In this document: positions 7,938-14,278 of the stretch, in pieces | Layout of the letters: each line of letters opens with the position of its first letter | Numbering within the stretch: position 1 is the stretch's first letter | Origin: an uncultured Lachnospiraceae bacterium | GTDB taxonomy: Bacteria; Bacillota; Clostridia; Lachnospirales; Lachnospiraceae | Reading direction: 5' to 3' | Length of the DNA: 64,000 nt | Assembly: GCA_947173495.1 (NCBI GenBank) | Contig: CAMWFQ010000002.1 | Location: forward strand, 1 to 64,000 | Made by a program: the position numbers and the translations under genes | The notes under the pieces: model-generated | Seen by the model: the letters and a program-made list of their open reading frames with translations, nothing else | Databases searched by the model: none | What the model was told of the DNA's origin: nothing

Positions 7938-9191
7938 TCAAAATTCCAAGCTGTCCGAATTCAAAAGAAAATACTTCATTCCCATGATGACAAATCCTTC
8001 TTCATTTCTCCAGGGTTTTGCCGTTCCACCTACAATCACTATTTTCTTAAAGGAATCCGGAATATTACGCAGAGAATGAAATTCCTGCGACTGCTTTTCC
8101 TTTGATGCCATATCATAGGTCACCTGAATATAATATCTCTGGCTTCCCTGGTTCACAACAAAATCAACCTCAAGCTGCCTGCGTACGCGTTTTCCTTCCT
8201 GATCTTTTCCATACATATCAATAATGCCTGTATCAACATGATATCCGCGAATCAGCAATTCGTTATAAACGATATTCTCCATAATATGGGTCGGCTCCTG
8301 CTGCCGAAAATTCAATCTTGCATTTCTGAGACCCACATCAGTAAAATAATACTTTAACTTCGCACCAACATATTTTCTTCTTTTAATATCATAACGATTG
8401 GATTTTGAAATCAGGAACGCTTCCTCAAGATAATTAATATGTTTGGATATTGTTTTATTCGTATAGCTAATCTGGCGTTCACTTGCAAAGGTATTCGAAA
8501 TCCGGGTTGGATTTGTCGGAGCCCCGATGGCAGATGCCAGAATATCAACCAGCGTATTCAAATCGTCCATACTTTGAATACCATTTCTTTCCACAACATC
8601 CTTCAGGTATACGTTTGTGAAAATATTTTTCAAATATTCTGCCTTCTGGCGTTCCGTCTGAAATCCGGCAACCTGCGGCAGTCCTCCATAAATCATATAA
8701 TCGTTCCATGCATCCTCATATTCTCCATCATAAACAGAATAGAATTCTGCAAAAGAAAGAGGATAAATTCTGATTTCATCTCCCCTTCCCCGAAACTCTG
8801 TTACAATGTCACTGGACAGAAATCTGGAATTGCTGCCTGTCACATAGATGTCAATATTACTGATACGGAGCAGGCTGTTCAGTACCTCTTCAAATCGAGG
8901 CATAAATTGTATTTCATCTAAAAGCAGATAATATCTTTCATCGTCTTTTACTGCAGTTTTCACGTGCTGATAACATATTTTTGGATCTCGTAATTCTTCA
9001 TTTGCAATACCATCCAGCGCAATCTCAATGACATGGTCTTCATCTACGCCATTTTTCAGTAAGTATTTTTTAAATATTTGAAAAAGTAAAAATGATTTTC
9101 CACATCTTCGTATGCCTGTAATCACCTTTATCATTCCATTATCTTTTCTCAGAATAAGCTGCTGAAGGTAACCATTTCTTTCAATTTCCAT
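7938..9191 (-). CDS. AAA_14/DUF4143 ATPase, paralogue 1
   Basis: A 417-residue protein: Walker A GIRRCGKS at 26-33, Walker B LLLDEIQ near 89-95, sensor-like YVTGSNS, a winged-helix region near 220-265 (NPTRISNTF...TNKTISKHINYLEEAFLI), then a C-terminal DUF4143 part with LEVDFV...YYIQV, as in restriction-endonuclease-like folds. The start at ATG 9191 follows AAGGAG. It is 60-plus percent similar by eye to paralogue 2, with nearly identical stretches (TDVGLRNARLNFRQQE). Biological role of the family is not established. The promoter (TTGAAA-17-TAGAAT) is bracketed by two copies of a 35-bp palindromic site. It is cytoplasmic. Confidence 0.85.
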   Translation of the reverse strand: MEIERNGYLQQLILRKDNGMIKVITGIRRCGKSFLLFQIFKKYLLKNGVDEDHVIEIALDGIANEELRDPKICYQHVKTAVKDDERYYLLLDEIQFMPRFEEVLNSLLRISNIDIYVTGSNSRFLSSDIVTEFRGRGDEIRIYPLSFAEFYSVYDGEYEDAWNDYMIYGGLPQVAGFQTERQKAEYLKNIFTNVYLKDVVERNGIQSMDDLNTLVDILASAIGAPTNPTRISNTFASERQISYTNKTISKHINYLEEAFLISKSNRYDIKRRKYVGAKLKYYFTDVGLRNARLNFRQQEPTHIMENIVYNELLIRGYHVDTGIIDMYGKDQEGKRVRRQLEVDFVVNQGSQRYYIQVTYDMASKEKQSQEFHSLRNIPDSFKKIVIVGGTAKPWRNEEGFVIMGMKYFLLNSDSLEF

Positions 9192-9201
9192 TCTGCTACT
9201 C

Positions 9202-9312
9202 CTTGTTTTTGTGCAAATACACACTTTTAAGTAATCTTATTCTACTATAAGCAGAATCTTATTTCAATATGTCATTCCTATTTTTTGTGTATTTACACAA
9301 TTTTATGTAATC
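9202..9312 (-). promoter_or_regulatory. Promoter with two flanking 35-bp operator copies (ATPase 1)
   Basis: Minus-strand sites at 9312-9278 and 9236-9202 are 28/35 identical and offset by 76 bases. Each contains a TTGTGTA..TACACAA type palindrome (perfect TTGTGTATTTACACAA at 9285-9300; TGTGTATTTGCACA in the other). Between them lies TTGAAA-17-TAGAAT. The downstream copy overlaps the ribosome binding site region. The layout suggests looping or cooperative repression by a dimeric winged-helix protein, possibly the ATPase itself. Confidence 0.6.
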
Positions 9313-9342
9313 AAGAAGTAAAACGGGAAATCGGAGCAATCG

Positions 9343-9384
9343 TGTCAATCGAATGACCCGATTGTGACCTGATTTGACCCGATA
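9343..9384. repeat. Four helically phased TGACCYGATT repeats
   Basis: Three copies of TGACC(C/T)GAT(T/A) begin at 9354, 9365 and 9375, and a weaker one (TGTCAATCGA) at 9343, a spacing of 10-11 bases, one helical turn. They lie between ATPase 1 and ATPase 2. A binding array for an unknown regulator is likely. Confidence 0.5.
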
Positions 9385-9392
9385 TTTTCATT

Positions 9393-9415
9393 GTGTTATG
9401 TTCTTTGCGCACCAT
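9393..9415. repeat. 23-bp direct repeat, copy 1
   Basis: The sequence GTGTTATGTTCTTTGCGCAC plus CAT is identical to 10920-10942. The two copies bracket ATPase 2 and the sirtuin fragment, as if a block of about 1.5 kb had been inserted or duplicated by recombination. Confidence 0.7.
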
Positions 9416-9421
9416 GTTGAT

Positions 9422-10675
9422 TTACAATTCCAGACTATTGGGATTCAAAAGGAAGTCCATGATTCCTATCACAACAATTCCTTCCTCATTCCGCCATAAT
9501 TTGATTCTGTCCTTAACTACAATGATTTTTTTGAAAGAATCGCCAATATGCACCAACGATTTCTTTTCCTGATTCATTTTTTCGCTATCCGGAATCGCAA
9601 ATGCAGACTGGATATAATATCTTTGGCTTCCGCGGTTGCAGACAAAATCCACTTCCAGCCGTTTGCGTACAAGCTTCCCTTTTCCATCGCGTTCAGAATG
9701 TTCTACAATACCGACATCGACATGGAAACCTCTGACCAGTAATTCGTTGTAGATGATGTTCTCCATAATATGCTTTTCTTCCTGTTGTCTGAAATTAAGC
9801 CTGGCATTGCGCAGCCCTACATCCGTAAAATAATATTTAAAGGGGAAAGCAATATACTTTTTCCCTTTAATATTGTACCGTTCTGCTTTGCTGATAAAAA
9901 AGGCATCCTCCAGATAACTGATATAAAGACCGATAGTTTTATCGCTGACACCTATTCCATTGCTGCTGAAAGTATTTGCCAGTTTTGTCGGATTCGTCAG
10001 AGATCCCACCGCCGATGCAAGGACACCCACCAGATCTGCCATGACATTGTCTCCACGCAGCTTGTTACGTTCTTCGATATCCTTTAGATACAGCTCGCTG
10101 CACAAGTCAGTCAGATATTTTGCCTTTAATTCCTCCGTTTTCCTACTGAGTATCAGCGGCAGCCCTCCATATGTGTAATAATCCAGCCATGCATCATATT
10201 TATCCCCGGAATATGCCGAAACATATTCCGAAAAGGACAGCGGATATACCCGGACTTCGTCACCACGCCCACGAAATTCTGTCAGCACATCAGAAGAAAG
10301 AAATTTTGAATTACTTCCTGTTACATAAATATCCAGATTCTCCTTTCGGTTTAAACCGTTGAGTACTGACTCAAATCCTTTACACATCTGGACTTCATCC
10401 AAAAAGACATACCACATGCTCTCATCAGTTATATGCTTTTTCACATAACTGTTTAACTGTTTGCTGTCACGCAAGTCTTCATAATCCTCGTCATCTAACG
10501 GAATCATGATAATCCTGGATGCATCTACGCCGGAATCCAACAGATATTGATAATATAGCTTGAACAGAAGATAAGATTTTCCACATCTCCTAATACCGGT
10601 AACTACCTTGATCAAGCCATTTTCGCGACGCTCAATCAGCCTCTTTAAATATATTTCCCGCTTAATAACTACCAT
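9422..10675 (-). CDS. AAA_14/DUF4143 ATPase, paralogue 2
   Basis: A 417-residue protein with the same plan as its neighbour: Walker A GIRRCGKS, Walker B YVFLDEVQ, sensor YVTGSNS, winged helix near 225-265 (NPTKLANTF...SDKTIGLYISYLEDAFFI), and C-terminal LEVDFVCNRGSQRYYIQ. The start at 10675 follows AAGGAGAGAAA. The putative recognition helix (SDKTIGLYISYL) differs clearly from paralogues 1 and 3, and so does the palindrome in front of the gene (TTACTTCG/CGAAGTAA). It lies between two copies of a 23-bp direct repeat. Function unknown; ATP binding is certain from motifs. Confidence 0.85.
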   Translation of the reverse strand: MVVIKREIYLKRLIERRENGLIKVVTGIRRCGKSYLLFKLYYQYLLDSGVDASRIIMIPLDDEDYEDLRDSKQLNSYVKKHITDESMWYVFLDEVQMCKGFESVLNGLNRKENLDIYVTGSNSKFLSSDVLTEFRGRGDEVRVYPLSFSEYVSAYSGDKYDAWLDYYTYGGLPLILSRKTEELKAKYLTDLCSELYLKDIEERNKLRGDNVMADLVGVLASAVGSLTNPTKLANTFSSNGIGVSDKTIGLYISYLEDAFFISKAERYNIKGKKYIAFPFKYYFTDVGLRNARLNFRQQEEKHIMENIIYNELLVRGFHVDVGIVEHSERDGKGKLVRKRLEVDFVCNRGSQRYYIQSAFAIPDSEKMNQEKKSLVHIGDSFKKIIVVKDRIKLWRNEEGIVVIGIMDFLLNPNSLEL

Positions 10676-10684
10676 TTTCTCTCC

Positions 10685-10726
10685 TTACTTCGAAATTCTG
10701 TAAAATGTTGCATTTTCCCGAAGTAA
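10685..10726 (-). promoter_or_regulatory. Nested palindromes before ATPase 2
   Basis: Outer arms TTACTTCG (10685-10692) and CGAAGTAA (10719-10726) enclose AAAATG/CATTTT (10702-10707, 10711-10716). The downstream arm overlaps the ribosome binding site. Likely operator; no second copy was found upstream, where sequence is interrupted by the sirtuin fragment. Confidence 0.5.
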
Positions 10727-10759
10727 AGCTTTGGCTAATCAAAAGCCGGATTCATTGCC

Positions 10760-10942
10760 TTATAAGCACTTAAGCACCTCCCCGATATCCCCGTCAATAC
10801 AGATTGACTGCCGTTGAATTTCTGTCGGGCAAGCTGCCTCGCTATAATTGATGCAGGCATAAACAGCTTCCCTGTTTTTCGCCGTCATCTGCCAGAAAGG
10901 GTACTTGATGATTCCCGGGGTGTTATGTTCTTTGCGCACCAT
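10760..10942 (-). pseudogene. C-terminal fragment of a second class M sirtuin
   Basis: The peptide NTPGIIKYPFWQMTAKNREA through SICIDGDIGEVL aligns with the last about 55 residues of the full sirtuin at 12342-13208 (NTPGIVKFSFWKMTEGNPKA, SICINADIGKVL). It covers only the end of the Rossmann fold. The first codons (MVRKEHN) are the 23-bp direct repeat that also occurs at 9393, so the fragment is joined to foreign sequence exactly there. Confidence 0.7.
10920..10942. repeat. 23-bp direct repeat, copy 2
   Basis: Identical to 9393-9415; it forms the truncated edge of the sirtuin fragment. Confidence 0.7.
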
Positions 10943-10968
10943 ACTTTGAAATTATCTTTACTATATGC

Positions 10969-12165
10969 TTACTTCTCCAGAAGCCATTCCGCAATATCGC
11001 AGACTTCAATACCTTCATATGTGTATTTCGGATGTTTTGTTCTGGCAATTACTTTTTTAGGATACGCATCCCGTATGCTTAAAAGCGGTGCAACTTCCCG
11101 TTTAAAGGTATCTTCGCCGACAATATTGTCACTGACCTGAATATATATTTTCTCACTTCCACGCTGTGCCACAAAATCAATTTCTTTTTGATACAGTTTT
11201 CCCACATAGACATCAAAGCCTCTTCGAAGAAGTTCCATGCAGACAATATTTTCATATATCCGTCCATAGTCCATGTTCCTGCTGCCCAAAACCGCATAGC
11301 GGATACCTGTGTCGCACAGATAAAACTTATCCAGAGACTCCAGATACTTCCTCCCCCGGATATCGTATCTCTTAATGTCATAAAAGACAAACGCATTGCA
11401 CAGATATTTGATATACTTTCCAACTGTCATATGGTTGGTGGCAATCTTGTTTTCGGACAGGATATTGCTCACCTTATTGGGAGAAGTCAGATTACTGACA
11501 TTATCCATCAGAAATTCACTGAGCCGCTGCAGCACCATAGTATCGGGAAGATGATACTTCTGTACAAGATCCCTGGTCACGATTGTTTCGTAAACCTCTT
11601 TTATATAATTTATTCTGTCTGTCTCGGTTCGATATACATAAGACCCCGCCAGTCCGCCGTTCAAGGAATAATCTTCAAAAAGCCGTTCTCTGTCTTTGAT
11701 GTCATTATAATATTCACAATATTCCTCAAAGCTGAAAGGAAATACCGGAATCTCGATATATCGACCGGTAAAAAGCGTCGCCAGATCCGCACTTAACAAA
11801 AATGCGTTTGAACCGGTAAGATAAATGTCATACTTTCTTTTTGCATACAGACTGTTGACGGCCAGCTCAAATCCGGGACACATCTGCACCTCATCCACAA
11901 AGACATAATTTGCCTTTCCTGCCTGATACCGCTCCTCCACATAATGATGAAGCGCATGATACTCTTTGATTTCCTCAAATGCCAAATCCATGTAATCCAC
12001 ATAAATAATATTAGCATCGTTAAAATGATTCCGTAGATATTCTACATAAGCCTGCATCAACTGAGATTTCCCGGAACGCCTGATTCCTGTAATGATTTTT
12101 ATGTCCGGGGTATCCTTCAAATTAATCATTCTGTCCAGATATTGTTTTCTCAAAATTGTCTTCAT
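10969..12165 (-). CDS. AAA_14/DUF4143 ATPase, paralogue 3
   Basis: A 398-residue protein: Walker A GIRRSGKS, Walker B YVFVDEVQ, YLTGSNA sensor, winged helix (NKVSNIL...NHMTVGKYIKYLCNAFVF) and a C-terminal EIDFV...YIQVSDN nuclease-like part. I use ATG 12165, seven bases after GGGGA; a TTG six codons upstream is less likely. It is more distant from paralogues 1 and 2 than they are from each other. The promoter (TTGTAT-18-TATAAT) is flanked by two TTTCAAAA-N17-TTTTGAAAG dyads. It is downstream of the sirtuin/macrodomain pair in the same direction but has its own promoter. Confidence 0.85.
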   Translation of the reverse strand: MKTILRKQYLDRMINLKDTPDIKIITGIRRSGKSQLMQAYVEYLRNHFNDANIIYVDYMDLAFEEIKEYHALHHYVEERYQAGKANYVFVDEVQMCPGFELAVNSLYAKRKYDIYLTGSNAFLLSADLATLFTGRYIEIPVFPFSFEEYCEYYNDIKDRERLFEDYSLNGGLAGSYVYRTETDRINYIKEVYETIVTRDLVQKYHLPDTMVLQRLSEFLMDNVSNLTSPNKVSNILSENKIATNHMTVGKYIKYLCNAFVFYDIKRYDIRGRKYLESLDKFYLCDTGIRYAVLGSRNMDYGRIYENIVCMELLRRGFDVYVGKLYQKEIDFVAQRGSEKIYIQVSDNIVGEDTFKREVAPLLSIRDAYPKKVIARTKHPKYTYEGIEVCDIAEWLLEK

Positions 12166-12176
12166 ATATTTCCCCG

Positions 12177-12285
12177 CTTTCAAAAATATAATTTTTTTAT
12201 TCTTTTGAAATCATTATATCCTGTATGACGTAAAAAATACAATGACTTTCCTTTCAAAACACAAATTATTTTCACTTTTTGAAAG
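12177..12285 (-). promoter_or_regulatory. Promoter with two flanking dyads (ATPase 3)
   Basis: Dyads CTTTCAAAA/TTTTGAAAG occupy 12251-12285 and 12177-12210, each with a 17-base spacer, about 75 bases apart. A TTGTAT-18-TATAAT promoter lies between them and the downstream dyad reaches the ribosome binding site. The geometry is the same as at ATPase 1, but the sequence is different. Confidence 0.6.
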
Positions 12286-12341: not shown

Positions 12342-13208
12342 TTATAATTGTTCGAGTACCTTCCCAATATCTGCATTGATACAGATGGAGCGGTCTCTGA
12401 TTTCCGTTGGTGCGCCGGCTTCCCCTAAATTGACACAGGCATAGACTGCCTTTGGATTCCCCTCTGTCATCTTCCAGAAAGAAAATTTCACTATGCCCGG
12501 GGTGTTATAACCTACGCCAAGTTCCAAAAACAGGATTCTTTGATTTTTCCTTGTCCGCAGGAAATTCTCGTACCGCCCCGCTGCCAGATGCCAGCCTTCG
12601 TCCTCCACAAATTTATCATCCGAACGCAGGTTCATGGTAAGAGGCTTGCCGCAGTGTGGGCATACCGGCAATAATTCTGTCGGGATCCGCATATCCGTCT
12701 GCCGCTCCAGCATCTGACGAATAACAGTCTCATTTTCAAAAGTCTCCGTGCAGCAGGGTTCGCTGCATTGAAACAGCCCGTAATCACCCTGTGTGTAAAA
12801 CAGCCTCTTTTTGTCAAATCCCGCCTTTTGAAAGCAGTGATCCACATTGGTTGTAATCACAAAATAGTCTTTGTGTTTTACCAGATCCAAAAGCGCCTGA
12901 TAGACCGGCTTCGGTGTGTCCATATAACGATTGATATAGATATAACGGCTCCAATATGCCCAATGCTCTTCCGGTGTCTCATATGGATAAAAACCGCCGG
13001 AATACATATCATGAAAGCCGTATTTTTGCTCAAAGTCTGAAAAATACTTTTCAAATCTCTCTCTGGTATAAACAAATCCGGCGGAAGTAGAAAGACCTGC
13101 GCCTGCTCCGATTACAACGGTATCGGCAGATTGGAATGCTTCTTTCAGGCGGTTAATCTGCCCGGAGCAGTTTTTTGTAGATTTCGTAATCGACATCCCT
13201 GAAAACAT
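12342..13208 (-). CDS. Class M sirtuin (SirTM), NAD+-dependent ADP-ribosyltransferase
   Basis: A 288-residue Sir2-fold protein. NAD motif GAGAGLSTSAGF at 34-45, TTNVDH at 119-124, and YTQGDYG with Gln140 where deacetylase sirtuins carry the catalytic His. Zinc ligands are probably C148, C152 or C153, C183 and C186. These are features of macrodomain-linked SirTM enzymes, which ADP-ribosylate a lipoylated GcvH-like protein in staphylococci and streptococci (established for those). The start at 13208 (GAGGTG site) lies inside the end of the macrodomain gene, so the two are translationally coupled. No GcvH-L or lipoate ligase gene is in this window, so its target here is open. Confidence 0.85.
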   Translation of the reverse strand: MFSGMSITKSTKNCSGQINRLKEAFQSADTVVIGAGAGLSTSAGFVYTRERFEKYFSDFEQKYGFHDMYSGGFYPYETPEEHWAYWSRYIYINRYMDTPKPVYQALLDLVKHKDYFVITTNVDHCFQKAGFDKKRLFYTQGDYGLFQCSEPCCTETFENETVIRQMLERQTDMRIPTELLPVCPHCGKPLTMNLRSDDKFVEDEGWHLAAGRYENFLRTRKNQRILFLELGVGYNTPGIVKFSFWKMTEGNPKAVYACVNLGEAGAPTEIRDRSICINADIGKVLEQL

Positions 13209-13932
13209 TAAATATCACCTCAATTTCACTTTTTGTCTGCCTTCTGTATTCTTTGACTGTCTGTACTGCAATCTCCGCCGCCTTATCATTTGGAAAATGA
13301 AACTCACCCGTGGATATACAGCAGAAAGCAATGCTTCTGACTGAATTTTGCTCCGCAAGCGTAAGACAGGAACGATAACAGGAGGCAAGCAGCGTCTTGT
13401 CACTTTCTGTCAGCCTGCCCTGAACAATCGGGCCAACCGTGTGTAGGATATATTTACATGGCAGGTTAAACGCCGGTGTAATCTTCGCCTGTCCTGTTTC
13501 TTCTTCATGTCCCTGTTTCTCCATAATATCTGCACAGGCAAGCCGAAGCTGAACGCCTGCAAAGGTATGAATGGCATTATCAATGCACCCATGACAGGGA
13601 TGGAAACAGCCGAGAAGCTGTGAGTTTGCAGCATTGACAACCGCATCGCACCCAAGCGTTGTAATATCCCCCTGCCAAAGATAGAGCTTATCCCTTTCAG
13701 GCATCAAATCTTCCAGCAGCGTAATCCCTTTCCGCATGGTTTCCTCCTGCAAATACTCGTCCTGTACCTGCAGAAATTTCTCTGATACAGGCTCCGGCAT
13801 ACGGATGTTAAAAAGCGAACGCAGAAGTCTCTTTTGCCCGCCGGCGTTCTCCGGAATCTGTATATCCGCATATTGGGACCGCTCCCGGAGCAATTCTTTG
13901 ATTAGAAAAATTCTTCTTTCTGTTTGATTCAT
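13153..13932 (-). CDS. Zn-dependent macrodomain ADP-ribosyl hydrolase
   Basis: A 259-residue protein; start ATG 13932 after AAGGAGG. Residues 1-75 are the helical extension typical of Zn-macrodomains; the macrodomain follows with the ADP-ribose motif VVNAANS at 98-104, zinc-binding stretch GCFHPCHGCIDNAIH at 109-122 (His/Cys ligands), TVGPIV, and the loop STGEFHFP near 208. Such proteins remove ADP-ribose put on by the linked sirtuin. The gene is first in a two-gene operon, with a 56-base overlap into the sirtuin gene. Complete in length and motifs. Confidence 0.88.
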   Translation of the reverse strand: MNQTERRIFLIKELLRERSQYADIQIPENAGGQKRLLRSLFNIRMPEPVSEKFLQVQDEYLQEETMRKGITLLEDLMPERDKLYLWQGDITTLGCDAVVNAANSQLLGCFHPCHGCIDNAIHTFAGVQLRLACADIMEKQGHEEETGQAKITPAFNLPCKYILHTVGPIVQGRLTESDKTLLASCYRSCLTLAEQNSVRSIAFCCISTGEFHFPNDKAAEIAVQTVKEYRRQTKSEIEVIFNVFRDVDYEIYKKLLRAD

Positions 13933-14278
13933 TTGCCGCCTCCTTTCCAAACAAACTGCCTTGACAGGGCAGTTTTCATAACAGTTTCCTGCCCTCTGTA
14001 TCTCATATTTTACTGATTTTTTTACATTCCGCCAGTACGCACTTTTTTATTACCTGGTCACTTTTTTGTGACCTTTGGGTCGTCGCAGGACTCTTTCAGA
14101 AATGTCATATACTAAATTTATTGAAAAACATTGAATGCTGCAATATAATAGGAATGTAACATTCAAATATGATGTAATGAGCGTTAGCGAGAAGAATGTG
14201 CTCGCACATTCGGCGAGCGGCGAATGGTGATCATGAATCGCAGATTCATGATATAATATATATGGGAAGAGGATTCAT
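13933..14278. other. Divergent intergenic region with hairpins
   Basis: About 345 bases between the macrodomain gene and an HxlR gene. It contains GAATGTGC-tc-GCACATTC (14194-14211) and a perfect ATCATGAATC-gca-GATTCATGAT (14230-14252) just before the HxlR start. The second may be the HxlR operator. The GAGCGTTAGCGAG/GGCGAGCGG flanks look like a repetitive extragenic element. No gene seen. Confidence 0.5.

Follow-up and report, generated by a model that had tools for sequence, protein, structure and literature searches.

Organization of the Locus

The stretch of DNA analyzed here, referred to as the window, comprises 64,000 nucleotides from an uncultured Lachnospiraceae bacterium (GenBank assembly GCA_947173495.1, contig CAMWFQ010000002.1, positions 1 to 64,000). 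On its minus strand, a macrodomain gene and a Sir2-family gene, which we take to be a SirTM gene (the Pfam match is to SIR2), are followed by a tandem row of three paralogous ATPase genes, g3, g2, and g1. An earlier reading made from the sequence alone (the sequence-only reading) had described these as AAA_14/DUF4143 genes, and Pfam matches to both domains were found for all three. The protein encoded by g1 is 56% identical to that of g2 and 34% identical to that of g3. Four DUF4143 genes were found in the genome at an E value of 0.001, three of them in this array. The start codon of g1 was set at position 9191 rather than at the GTG at 9224 because a GGAG-type motif ends 7 base pairs (bp) before it in 62 of 79 upstream regions from the g1 clade (g1 included). 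The coordinates of all features are collected in Table 1.

We consider it probable that each of these genes encodes a self-repressing ATPase with DNA sites of its own, that the gene and its sites form a compact mobile unit, and that three such units have been stacked at the 3′ end of the SirTM gene.

Table 1. Features of the ATPase array and the adjoining genes in the window
Feature	Position	Strand	Remarks
g1, ATPase gene 1	7938..9191	-	AAA_14 + winged helix + DUF4143 (PD-(D/E)XK-like), 417 amino acids
g1 proximal operator (putative)	9196..9236	-	39-bp repeat unit, core TGTGTATTTGCACA; core match 9210-9234, outer limits by eye
g1 promoter-like pair	9239..9267	-	TTGAAA-17-TAGAAT, between both operators
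g1 distal operator (putative)	9272..9312	-	core TGTGTAAATACACA; core match 9286-9310, outer limits by eye
Tail sequence behind g2	9392..9415	-	ATGGTGCGCAAAGAACATAACACA; no sirtuin C-terminus after this tail
g2, ATPase gene 2	9422..10675	-	AAA_14 + DUF4143, 417 amino acids
g2 single operator (putative)	10685..10726	-	TTACTTCG...CGAAGTAA, 42-bp dyad adjoining the start codon, upstream
Displaced C-terminus of a second SirTM gene	10760..10942	-	60-amino acid open reading frame (ORF); begins inside the tail (MVRKEHNTPGIIKYPFW...)
Tail sequence behind g3	10919..10942	-	ATGGTGCGCAAAGAACATAACACC
g3, ATPase gene 3	10969..12165	-	AAA_14 + DUF4143, 398 amino acids
g3 proximal operator (putative)	12177..12210	-	dyad
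g3 distal operator (putative)	12251..12285	-	CTTTCAAAA-N17-TTTTGAAAG; only exact pattern match in the genome
Intact SirTM (Sir2-family) gene	12342..13208	-	Pfam SIR2; the array lies on its 3′ end
Macrodomain protein-ADP-ribose hydrolase gene	13153..13950	-	adjoins SirTM

Architecture of the ATPases

All three proteins were found to match the PADLOC family PDC-S01, with PDLC04787 as the best model (E values of 6e-117, 2e-119, and 4e-149), and the matches to the PADLOC and Pfam models extend over nearly the whole protein. No solved structure was matched in a sequence search of the PDB. The AlphaFold2 model of g1 (predicted local distance difference test score, 90.5) is composed of an AAA domain, a winged helix (residues 208-283), and a PD-(D/E)XK-like C-terminal domain, these names having been read from the model together with Pfam. 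The winged helix contains helices at residues 208-220, 228-239, and 245-257, followed by strands up to residue 283. The third helix and the two strands behind it occupy the predicted positions of a recognition helix and a wing, and this helix is the one that the sequence-only reading had named. The accompanying statement that the paralogues differ mostly in the recognition helix did not hold, since g1 and g2 keep 9 of the 18 residues at positions 241-258, compared with 56% identity overall.

In an alignment of 75 proteins that includes the three from the window, residues K22, G26, R28, R29, G31, K32, D92, E93, G119, S120, and R136 are invariant, and the ATPase motifs of g1, g2, and g3 are intact. 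Residues E305, D343, and Q356 of the PD-(D/E)XK-like domain are likewise invariant in all 75. Every one of these proteins lacks the lysine of the (D/E)xK motif, with A, S, or T at its position in 73 of them and C or V in the others, and for this reason the nuclease activity of the domain is uncertain.

Putative Operators of g1, g2, and g3

The sequence-only reading proposed paired palindromes of about 35 bp at g1 and g3. This description fits g3, where two dyads of 34-35 bp, which are also direct repeats of one another, were found 74 bp apart. The sites at g1 are instead direct repeats of about 39 bp, spaced 77 bp apart, with a dyad core of only 14-16 bp, and the intergenic region of g1 contains no dyad with arms of 8 or more. 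The proximal putative operator of g1 overlaps the ribosome-binding region, and the distal one also marks the approximate 5′ limit of the mobile unit described below. One sigma-70-like pair was found between the g1 sites, compared with 0.8 expected in shuffled sequences. For g2, the single palindromic site reported earlier was confirmed. Promoter-like sequence can be recognized by eye upstream of the corresponding site of L020, a relative 85% identical to g2, and the g2 gene of the window has therefore probably lost its upstream half.

The chance of finding as many dyads with arms of at least 8 in random sequences was 4.8% for g2 and 3.2% for g3. Within the window alone the dyads are thus modestly unlikely to have arisen by chance, and the comparative evidence is stronger. 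The genome as a whole (4.58 Mb) was searched for the g1 site with up to 3 mismatches, and the only two matches were both at the promoter of g1; a reversed control pattern gave one match. A single match to the exact g3 pattern was found, at the promoter of g3; the pattern is too strict to recover the proximal site of g3 itself. The insulation that had been proposed for the three genes is supported for g1.

Recurrence of the Sites among Relatives

The upstream regions were compared using the best 80 of 203 relatives of g1 (78-96% identity), to which further clades were added. The named relatives of g1 are mostly Lachnospiraceae. A site was accepted at p < 0.05 with 60 randomizations per region, 6 identical regions were removed, and all 221 control ORFs were used; L060 and L124 are probably the same record, as are L112 and L123, and both members of each pair were kept in the site counts. 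The paired sites that the sequence-only reading had suggested looking for in homologues were found. An upstream pair of direct repeats was detected in 40 of 86 g1-clade regions and 30 of 71 other relatives, compared with 11 of the 221 controls. The corresponding counts for an upstream dyad were 8 of 86, 26 of 71, and 24 of 221, and for either feature or both 47 of 86, 46 of 71, and 34 of 221, respectively. In the g1 clade it is therefore the repeat pair that is enriched and not the dyad itself. An earlier count, which used 150 of the 221 controls and counted some contigs twice, gave repeats in 43% of the g1 clade, 39% of the other relatives, and 5% of the controls.

The repeats of the g1 clade recur amid unrelated surroundings. 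Placement succeeded for 70 of 79 regions, and the spacing between the two sites was 74-76 bp in 50 regions, 87 bp in five, and 61 bp in one. A promoter-like pair at the same distance from the start codon as in g1 was found in 74 of 78 g1-clade regions, compared with 15 of 78 after shuffling, and in those 74 regions the -10 box ends 42-48 bp before the start codon. Other clades have different motifs in the same layout. Among 65 genes below 85% identity, 25 have a repeat pair, 26 have a dyad, and 42 have at least one of these. The spacings in the 25 genes with a repeat pair are 67-79 and 84-87 bp, with none at 80-83 bp (range searched, 60-95 bp). Among DUF4143 genes sampled across the phylum (25 usable loci of 30, with gene starts guessed by script), a dyad was found in 7 and a repeat pair in 1. 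The layout is thus not universal among DUF4143 genes and fades far from this group.

Some individual regions depart from the common layout. Upstream of the ATPase gene of L101, the control region is seemingly present as two copies in head-to-tail order, and a second promoter-like -10 box can be recognized (by eye). A 46-bp operator-like copy (96% identical) lies about 108 bp behind the gene of L016, and in L158 and L159 inverted operator-like stretches directly follow the stop codon.

Co-variation of the Recognition Helix and the Operators

The co-variation of protein and operator was measured for 42 genes (861 pairs), with the operators extracted from the DNA alone and each correlation expressed as a partial r given the rest of the protein. 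Among 399 windows of 12 residues, the best predictor of operator similarity was found to be residues 245-256, in the predicted recognition helix, with a partial r of 0.289, and windows of 18 and 24 residues peaked in the same region, at 241-258 and 243-266. By segment, the partial r was 0.292 for the recognition helix (244-257), 0.029 for helix 1, -0.059 for helix 2, 0.081 for the wing, 0.059 for the AAA core, 0.021 for the AAA lid, and -0.080 for the C-terminal domain. The partial r between operator and helix with the AAA domain given, 0.266, was reached by none of 500 permutations. The reverse value, for operator and AAA domain with the helix given, was 0.100 and was reached by 19 of 500; for the C-terminal domain with the helix given, the count was 7 of 500.

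Individual pairings of helix and site can be read off directly. Helices with NHKTV are found with TTTCCCAAA-type sites, NDKTVG with TTTCGCAAA or TTTCGAAAA, NHVTVGK with CTTTCAAAA or CTTTCGAAA, and NTIRQY with TTGAATA...TATTCAA. An autorepressor should carry a DNA-reading domain and have operators at its own promoter. Here the model predicts a winged helix at residues 208-283, and the putative operators at each gene's own promoter co-vary with the helix predicted to read them.

The Gene and Its Operators as a Mobile Unit

The flanking DNA was compared for those 71 g1-clade loci that have 400 bp or more on each side. Among 71 pairs of loci whose genes are 90-95% identical, 64 share neither flank, 7 share something, and none share both flanks; among the 7 pairs above 95% identity, 4 share both flanks and 3 share something. 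The limits of the alignments were collected over 3237 pairs. The 5′ limit was most often at the distal repeat, between -120 and -111 relative to the start codon (1027 pairs), and the most common 3′ limit (2452 pairs) was 0 to 9 bp past the last sense codon; in the remaining pairs some alignments stop short and others run on. The conserved unit is the gene with its control region, about 1.37 kb from approximately 120 bp upstream to the stop codon. Of the features of a transposon-type element, discrete ends (not resolved to the base), unrelated flanks, and empty sites were found, and the gene with its operators behaves as a compact mobile unit. No inverted ends were seen by eye at the unit boundaries, and no recombinase was identified, although no search aimed at recombinases was made.

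The clearest empty site is that of L018. At this point the 3′ end of the neighboring gene is present twice in L018 but once in G005, the duplicated segment being 84 bp long, 92% identical, and inclusive of what reads as a terminator; in G020 both flanks of L018 are found about 25 bp apart. For L010, the distance between the flanks is about 125 bp in G007 and 270 bp in G018. Repeats running from flank to flank were flagged in 32 of 161 loci (inverted repeats included), compared with 0 of 161 upon random pairing. Three of these were removed: the repeats of L091 and L098 are artifacts of the script, there being almost no upstream DNA, and the repeat of L016 is its own operator. Seven of the 161 loci probably come from contigs already represented in the set, and one of the seven is among the remaining 29 (L060/L124). 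In 11 loci (L011, L018, L036, L042, L068, L076, L099, L131, L147, L150, and L166) the repeats are close to the unit on both sides, with the left copy within 300 bp of the start codon and the right copy within 220 bp of the gene end. On the basis of the empty site and the flank-to-flank repeats, the insertion at L018 duplicated the 3′ end of the neighboring gene, and other insertions probably did likewise.

At L011 (G033:C87), the ATPase unit stands between two copies of a 149-bp repeat that are 87% identical. Related copies were found three times in G024:C20, and also in G002, G022, and elsewhere in G033; this repeat may mark another array.

A Probable Array Anchored on a Sirtuin Gene

The same 24-bp tail, ATGGTGCGCAAAGAACATAACAC, follows g3 and g2, even though g3 is only 34% identical to g1. 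Behind g3 the tail passes at the NTP codons into a spare SirTM C-terminus, which is 60% identical over 55 amino acids to the C-terminus of the intact SirTM; on its own, this 60-amino acid ORF gave no Pfam match.

How such an arrangement can arise is illustrated by L045, whose interrupted SirTM was compared with two types of SirTM protein. Up to NTP, the N-terminal part is 67-71% identical to seven type 2 proteins and 49-50% identical to three type 1 proteins. After NTP, the C-terminal part is 54-59% identical to type 1 and 29-40% identical to type 2. The displaced original C-terminus, 60-65% identical to type 2 and 33-37% to type 1, is found behind the ATPase gene and the tail and is followed by the macrodomain gene. 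L042 is a second such fusion, with an N-terminal part 55-59% identical to type 2 (42-44% to type 1) and a C-terminal part 56-61% identical to type 1 (36-40% to type 2). In these two relatives the C-terminus of SirTM was thus replaced, the new one having been supplied by the insert. The empty state is represented by the uninterrupted SirTM-macrodomain pairs of L186-L191 and L193. The SirTM proteins of L044, L039, and the window are type 1 throughout, and therefore no swap is visible in the SirTM of the window.

The tail was found in 6 of 298 genomes of the family other than G000. In three of these, other cargo lies between SirTM and the tail or spare C-terminus: another PDC-S01 gene (L256); RhuM-Fic (PDC-S23) followed by an AlbA_2 gene, with a YafQ-like toxin gene beyond (L257); and RhuM followed by AbiEi/AbiEii (L258). 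G116 carries what is left of a g1-type unit (L249 and L259), in G392 the tail lies in an unrelated place (L260), and in G463 it is situated at the end of a contig (L248). L290 (G071) combines HipBA with another PDC-S01 gene and a spare C-terminus. As an insertion hot spot, the 3′ end of SirTM holds PDC-S01, RhuM(-Fic), AlbA_2, AbiE, and HipAB genes, interspersed with spare SirTM C-termini.

The row of three genes in the window reads as a small cassette array on the sirtuin gene. The three genes probably adjoin one another because such genes move as compact units, in this case into the tail of a sirtuin gene. Neither the mobility of the units nor the sirtuin-anchored array formed part of the sequence-only reading. 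More tentatively, these ATPases could belong to a widespread class of single-gene mobile units, each with a defense-type ATPase, a private operator pair, and a DNA-reading helix, which land at the 3′ ends of host genes and duplicate or replace them. The SirTM genes would then be a capture platform on which cassette arrays of defense and toxin-antitoxin genes are built, separated by the 24-bp tail and spare sirtuin C-termini, in a form of gene capture unlike that of integrons.

At L182 (G015:C40), the tail is found about 220 bp behind SirTM with no ATPase gene. It is preceded by a stem-loop and by a fragment similar to the 3′ tail of g1-type units, and the arrangement is probably an emptied cassette.

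Proposed Function and Alternatives

From the co-variation of helix and operator, together with the occurrence of the g1 site only at the g1 promoter, we conclude that self-repression by each ATPase is most likely. In the proposed mechanism, each gene would encode an ATPase (AAA, winged helix, and PD-(D/E)XK-like domains), a dimer or higher assembly of which binds the dyad-containing site through the recognition helix at approximately residues 245-257. In the paired layout, one site would lie upstream of the -35 box and the other between the -10 box and the start codon, and the promoter would be shut when both are occupied, perhaps with a loop in the DNA. Looping between two sites is plausible and fits the clustered spacings. 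Each paralogue would read its own site, so that the copies would not regulate one another. Because the gene and its operators travel as one compact unit, the control elements stay with the gene, and units with different operators can accumulate in one genome. Insertions of the type seen at L045 and L042 would most likely have stacked the three units of the window behind SirTM, at its 3′ end. Derepression on infection, with the ATPase drawn off its operator, would release the defense output.

A number of results weigh against this interpretation. Significant sites were also found in the 34 control ORFs counted above, and none was found in 23 of the 65 genes below 85% identity. The distal site was not recognized in 14 of the 70 placed g1-clade regions, where the best match was the proximal site, and 9 of 79 regions could not be placed. 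The promoter-bracketing arrangement claimed earlier for g1 and g3 holds at g1, but no promoter-like pair was found between the two sites of g3, where TATAAT can be recognized by eye at 12212-12217. No promoter-like pair was found for g2 within 10660-10960 and no second site was seen, so that the earlier description of three self-limiting switches is doubtful for this gene. The co-variation proposed by the sequence-only reading is upheld by the ranking of residues 245-256 but is less exclusive than that ranking implies. Residues 173-184 of the AAA lid come close, with a partial r of 0.231, and when single columns were ranked, residues 175 and 362, both outside the winged helix, came ahead of 251, the best-placed column of the helix. 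The six exposed residues of the helix alone gave a partial r of 0.191, below that of the whole helix, and in the g3-type clade (10 genes, 45 pairs) the identity of the AAA domain tracks the operator better than that of the helix (r of 0.83 versus 0.63). A cruder test on the whole upstream DNA spread the signal over the protein without singling out the helix, whose columns made up 1 of the top 20 compared with 0.9 expected. Moreover, the pairs of relatives in the co-variation test are not independent of one another.

The coincidence of the 5′ limit of the unit with the distal repeat could instead mean that the repeats are the end of a mobile element, bound by the ATPase for excision or insertion, with repression, if any, as a by-product. 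Such a role would suit a gene that has reached many unrelated sites and a fold that joins an ATPase to a PD-(D/E)XK-like domain. It would also suit the control-region-like stretches that 14 of 153 loci have in the 400 bp behind the gene (E ≤ 0.01), the clearest being the 46-bp stretch of L016 (96%) and the inverted ones directly after the stop codons of L158 and L159; these stretches likewise count against self-repression. However, no such stretch was found in the other 139 loci, and the unit stops at the stop codon. The sites flank a promoter-like pair at a fixed distance, which the end of an element would not need, and some clades have a single promoter dyad with no significant repeat pair (L152, L155, L157, and L158). 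The absence of the (D/E)xK lysine from all 75 aligned proteins also argues against this explanation, which we regard as unlikely.

Common descent alone could account for the helix signal if the sites were bound by a separate host regulator or by clade-specific repressors, since both operators and proteins follow the tree. The AAA identity that best predicts the operators of the g3-type clade, and the predictive window in the AAA lid, are in keeping with this. With the rest of the protein given, however, no region predicts the operators better than the recognition helix, whether windows of 12, 18, or 24 residues are used; the sites travel with the gene into unrelated surroundings; and those of g1 are found nowhere else in this genome. 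We consider a separate regulator improbable. An explanation that we do not favor, and to which we assign a slighter probability still, is that the dyads are RNA hairpins that control translation from the 5′ leader rather than DNA operators. As RNA, the site of g2, which directly adjoins the ribosome-binding site, has a good fold (-13.8 kcal/mol, z = -4.67), and the proximal and distal sites of g3 gave z values of -3.20 and -2.17, respectively. The sites of g1, in contrast, barely fold (z = -0.46 and -1.68), and the distal copy recurs even though it lies upstream of the -35 box and would be outside a transcript from this promoter. Hairpins would also leave the co-variation with the winged helix unexplained. 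Self-repression through private operators thus remains the reading that we prefer.

Relation to Known Systems

The sequence-only reading knew of no described system of this kind. The family itself is already known as a defense candidate, as stated in two reports (PMC12988326, PMC13356809). The first of these describes PDC-S01 as an ATPase fused to a PD-(D/E)XK member, a single-gene phage-defense candidate, and ranks it as the fourth most common defense across prokaryotes, while most candidates of this type still await validation (PMC12988326). The three proteins of the window share its AAA_14 and DUF4143 match. In a literature search on DUF4143, AAA_14, and PDC-S01, which left subscription papers mostly uncovered, no account of operators, self-binding, unit boundaries, or arrays was found. 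A search on sirtuin/macrodomain hot spots likewise turned up no recognizable account of these arrays.

The best structural match of the g1 model is SSO1545 (PDB 2fna), an archaeal AAA+ ATPase (Foldseek E value of 8e-8), with a TM-score of 0.46 and 15% identity. AAA+ proteins bound to DNA are represented among the matches by the Orc1/Cdc6 initiators on origin DNA (2v1u and 2qby), at a TM-score of about 0.30, and the same list contains clamp loaders and STAND proteins (Apaf-1, CED-4, and Avs4). Archaeal origin repeats lie next to the Orc1/Cdc6 gene, whereas the repeats of the window flank a promoter-like pair. GalR and lambda CI are repressors that use two operators around a promoter. The systems described here share with them two promoter-bracketing sites and spacing clusters about one helical turn apart, but GalR and lambda CI are dedicated regulators, whereas here the putative effector ATPase itself carries the predicted DNA-reading domain. 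With integron cassette arrays and 3′-end insertion of the SCC (staphylococcal cassette chromosome) type, the sirtuin-anchored array shares the stacking of one- or two-gene inserts at a single site and a host gene completed by the incoming 3′ end. It differs in that the repeated part is the coding 3′ end of SirTM plus the 24-bp tail, and in that no recombinase was identified, in the absence of a search aimed at one.

If correct, a self-read operator would give PDC-S01 a concrete molecular activity and a reporter promoter with which to ask which phage signal lifts the ATPase off its DNA. The pairs of helix and site would amount to a natural specificity code. The sirtuin-anchored arrays, if confirmed, would represent a new way in which bacteria collect defense genes and a place to find more of them.

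Neighboring Genes and Other Occurrences

A general partner gene was sought among the neighbors of 80 g1-type loci and was rejected, as the neighbors were varied. They include SirTM (6 loci), macrodomain (6), ABC transporter (7), helix-turn-helix regulator (5), response regulator (5), flavodoxin-like (5), AraC-like (4), and aldo/keto reductase (4) genes. Relatives of g1 were also found on 226 plasmid records (224 of them below 60% identity) and on 17 phage records; 173 of the 226 plasmid records are from Acinetobacter. In the window, the DNA upstream of g1 (9310-9400) contains a repeated intergenic motif with TCGGGTCA/TGACCCGA halves, which was also recognized by eye behind or near other SirTM or ATPase genes (L182 and L207).

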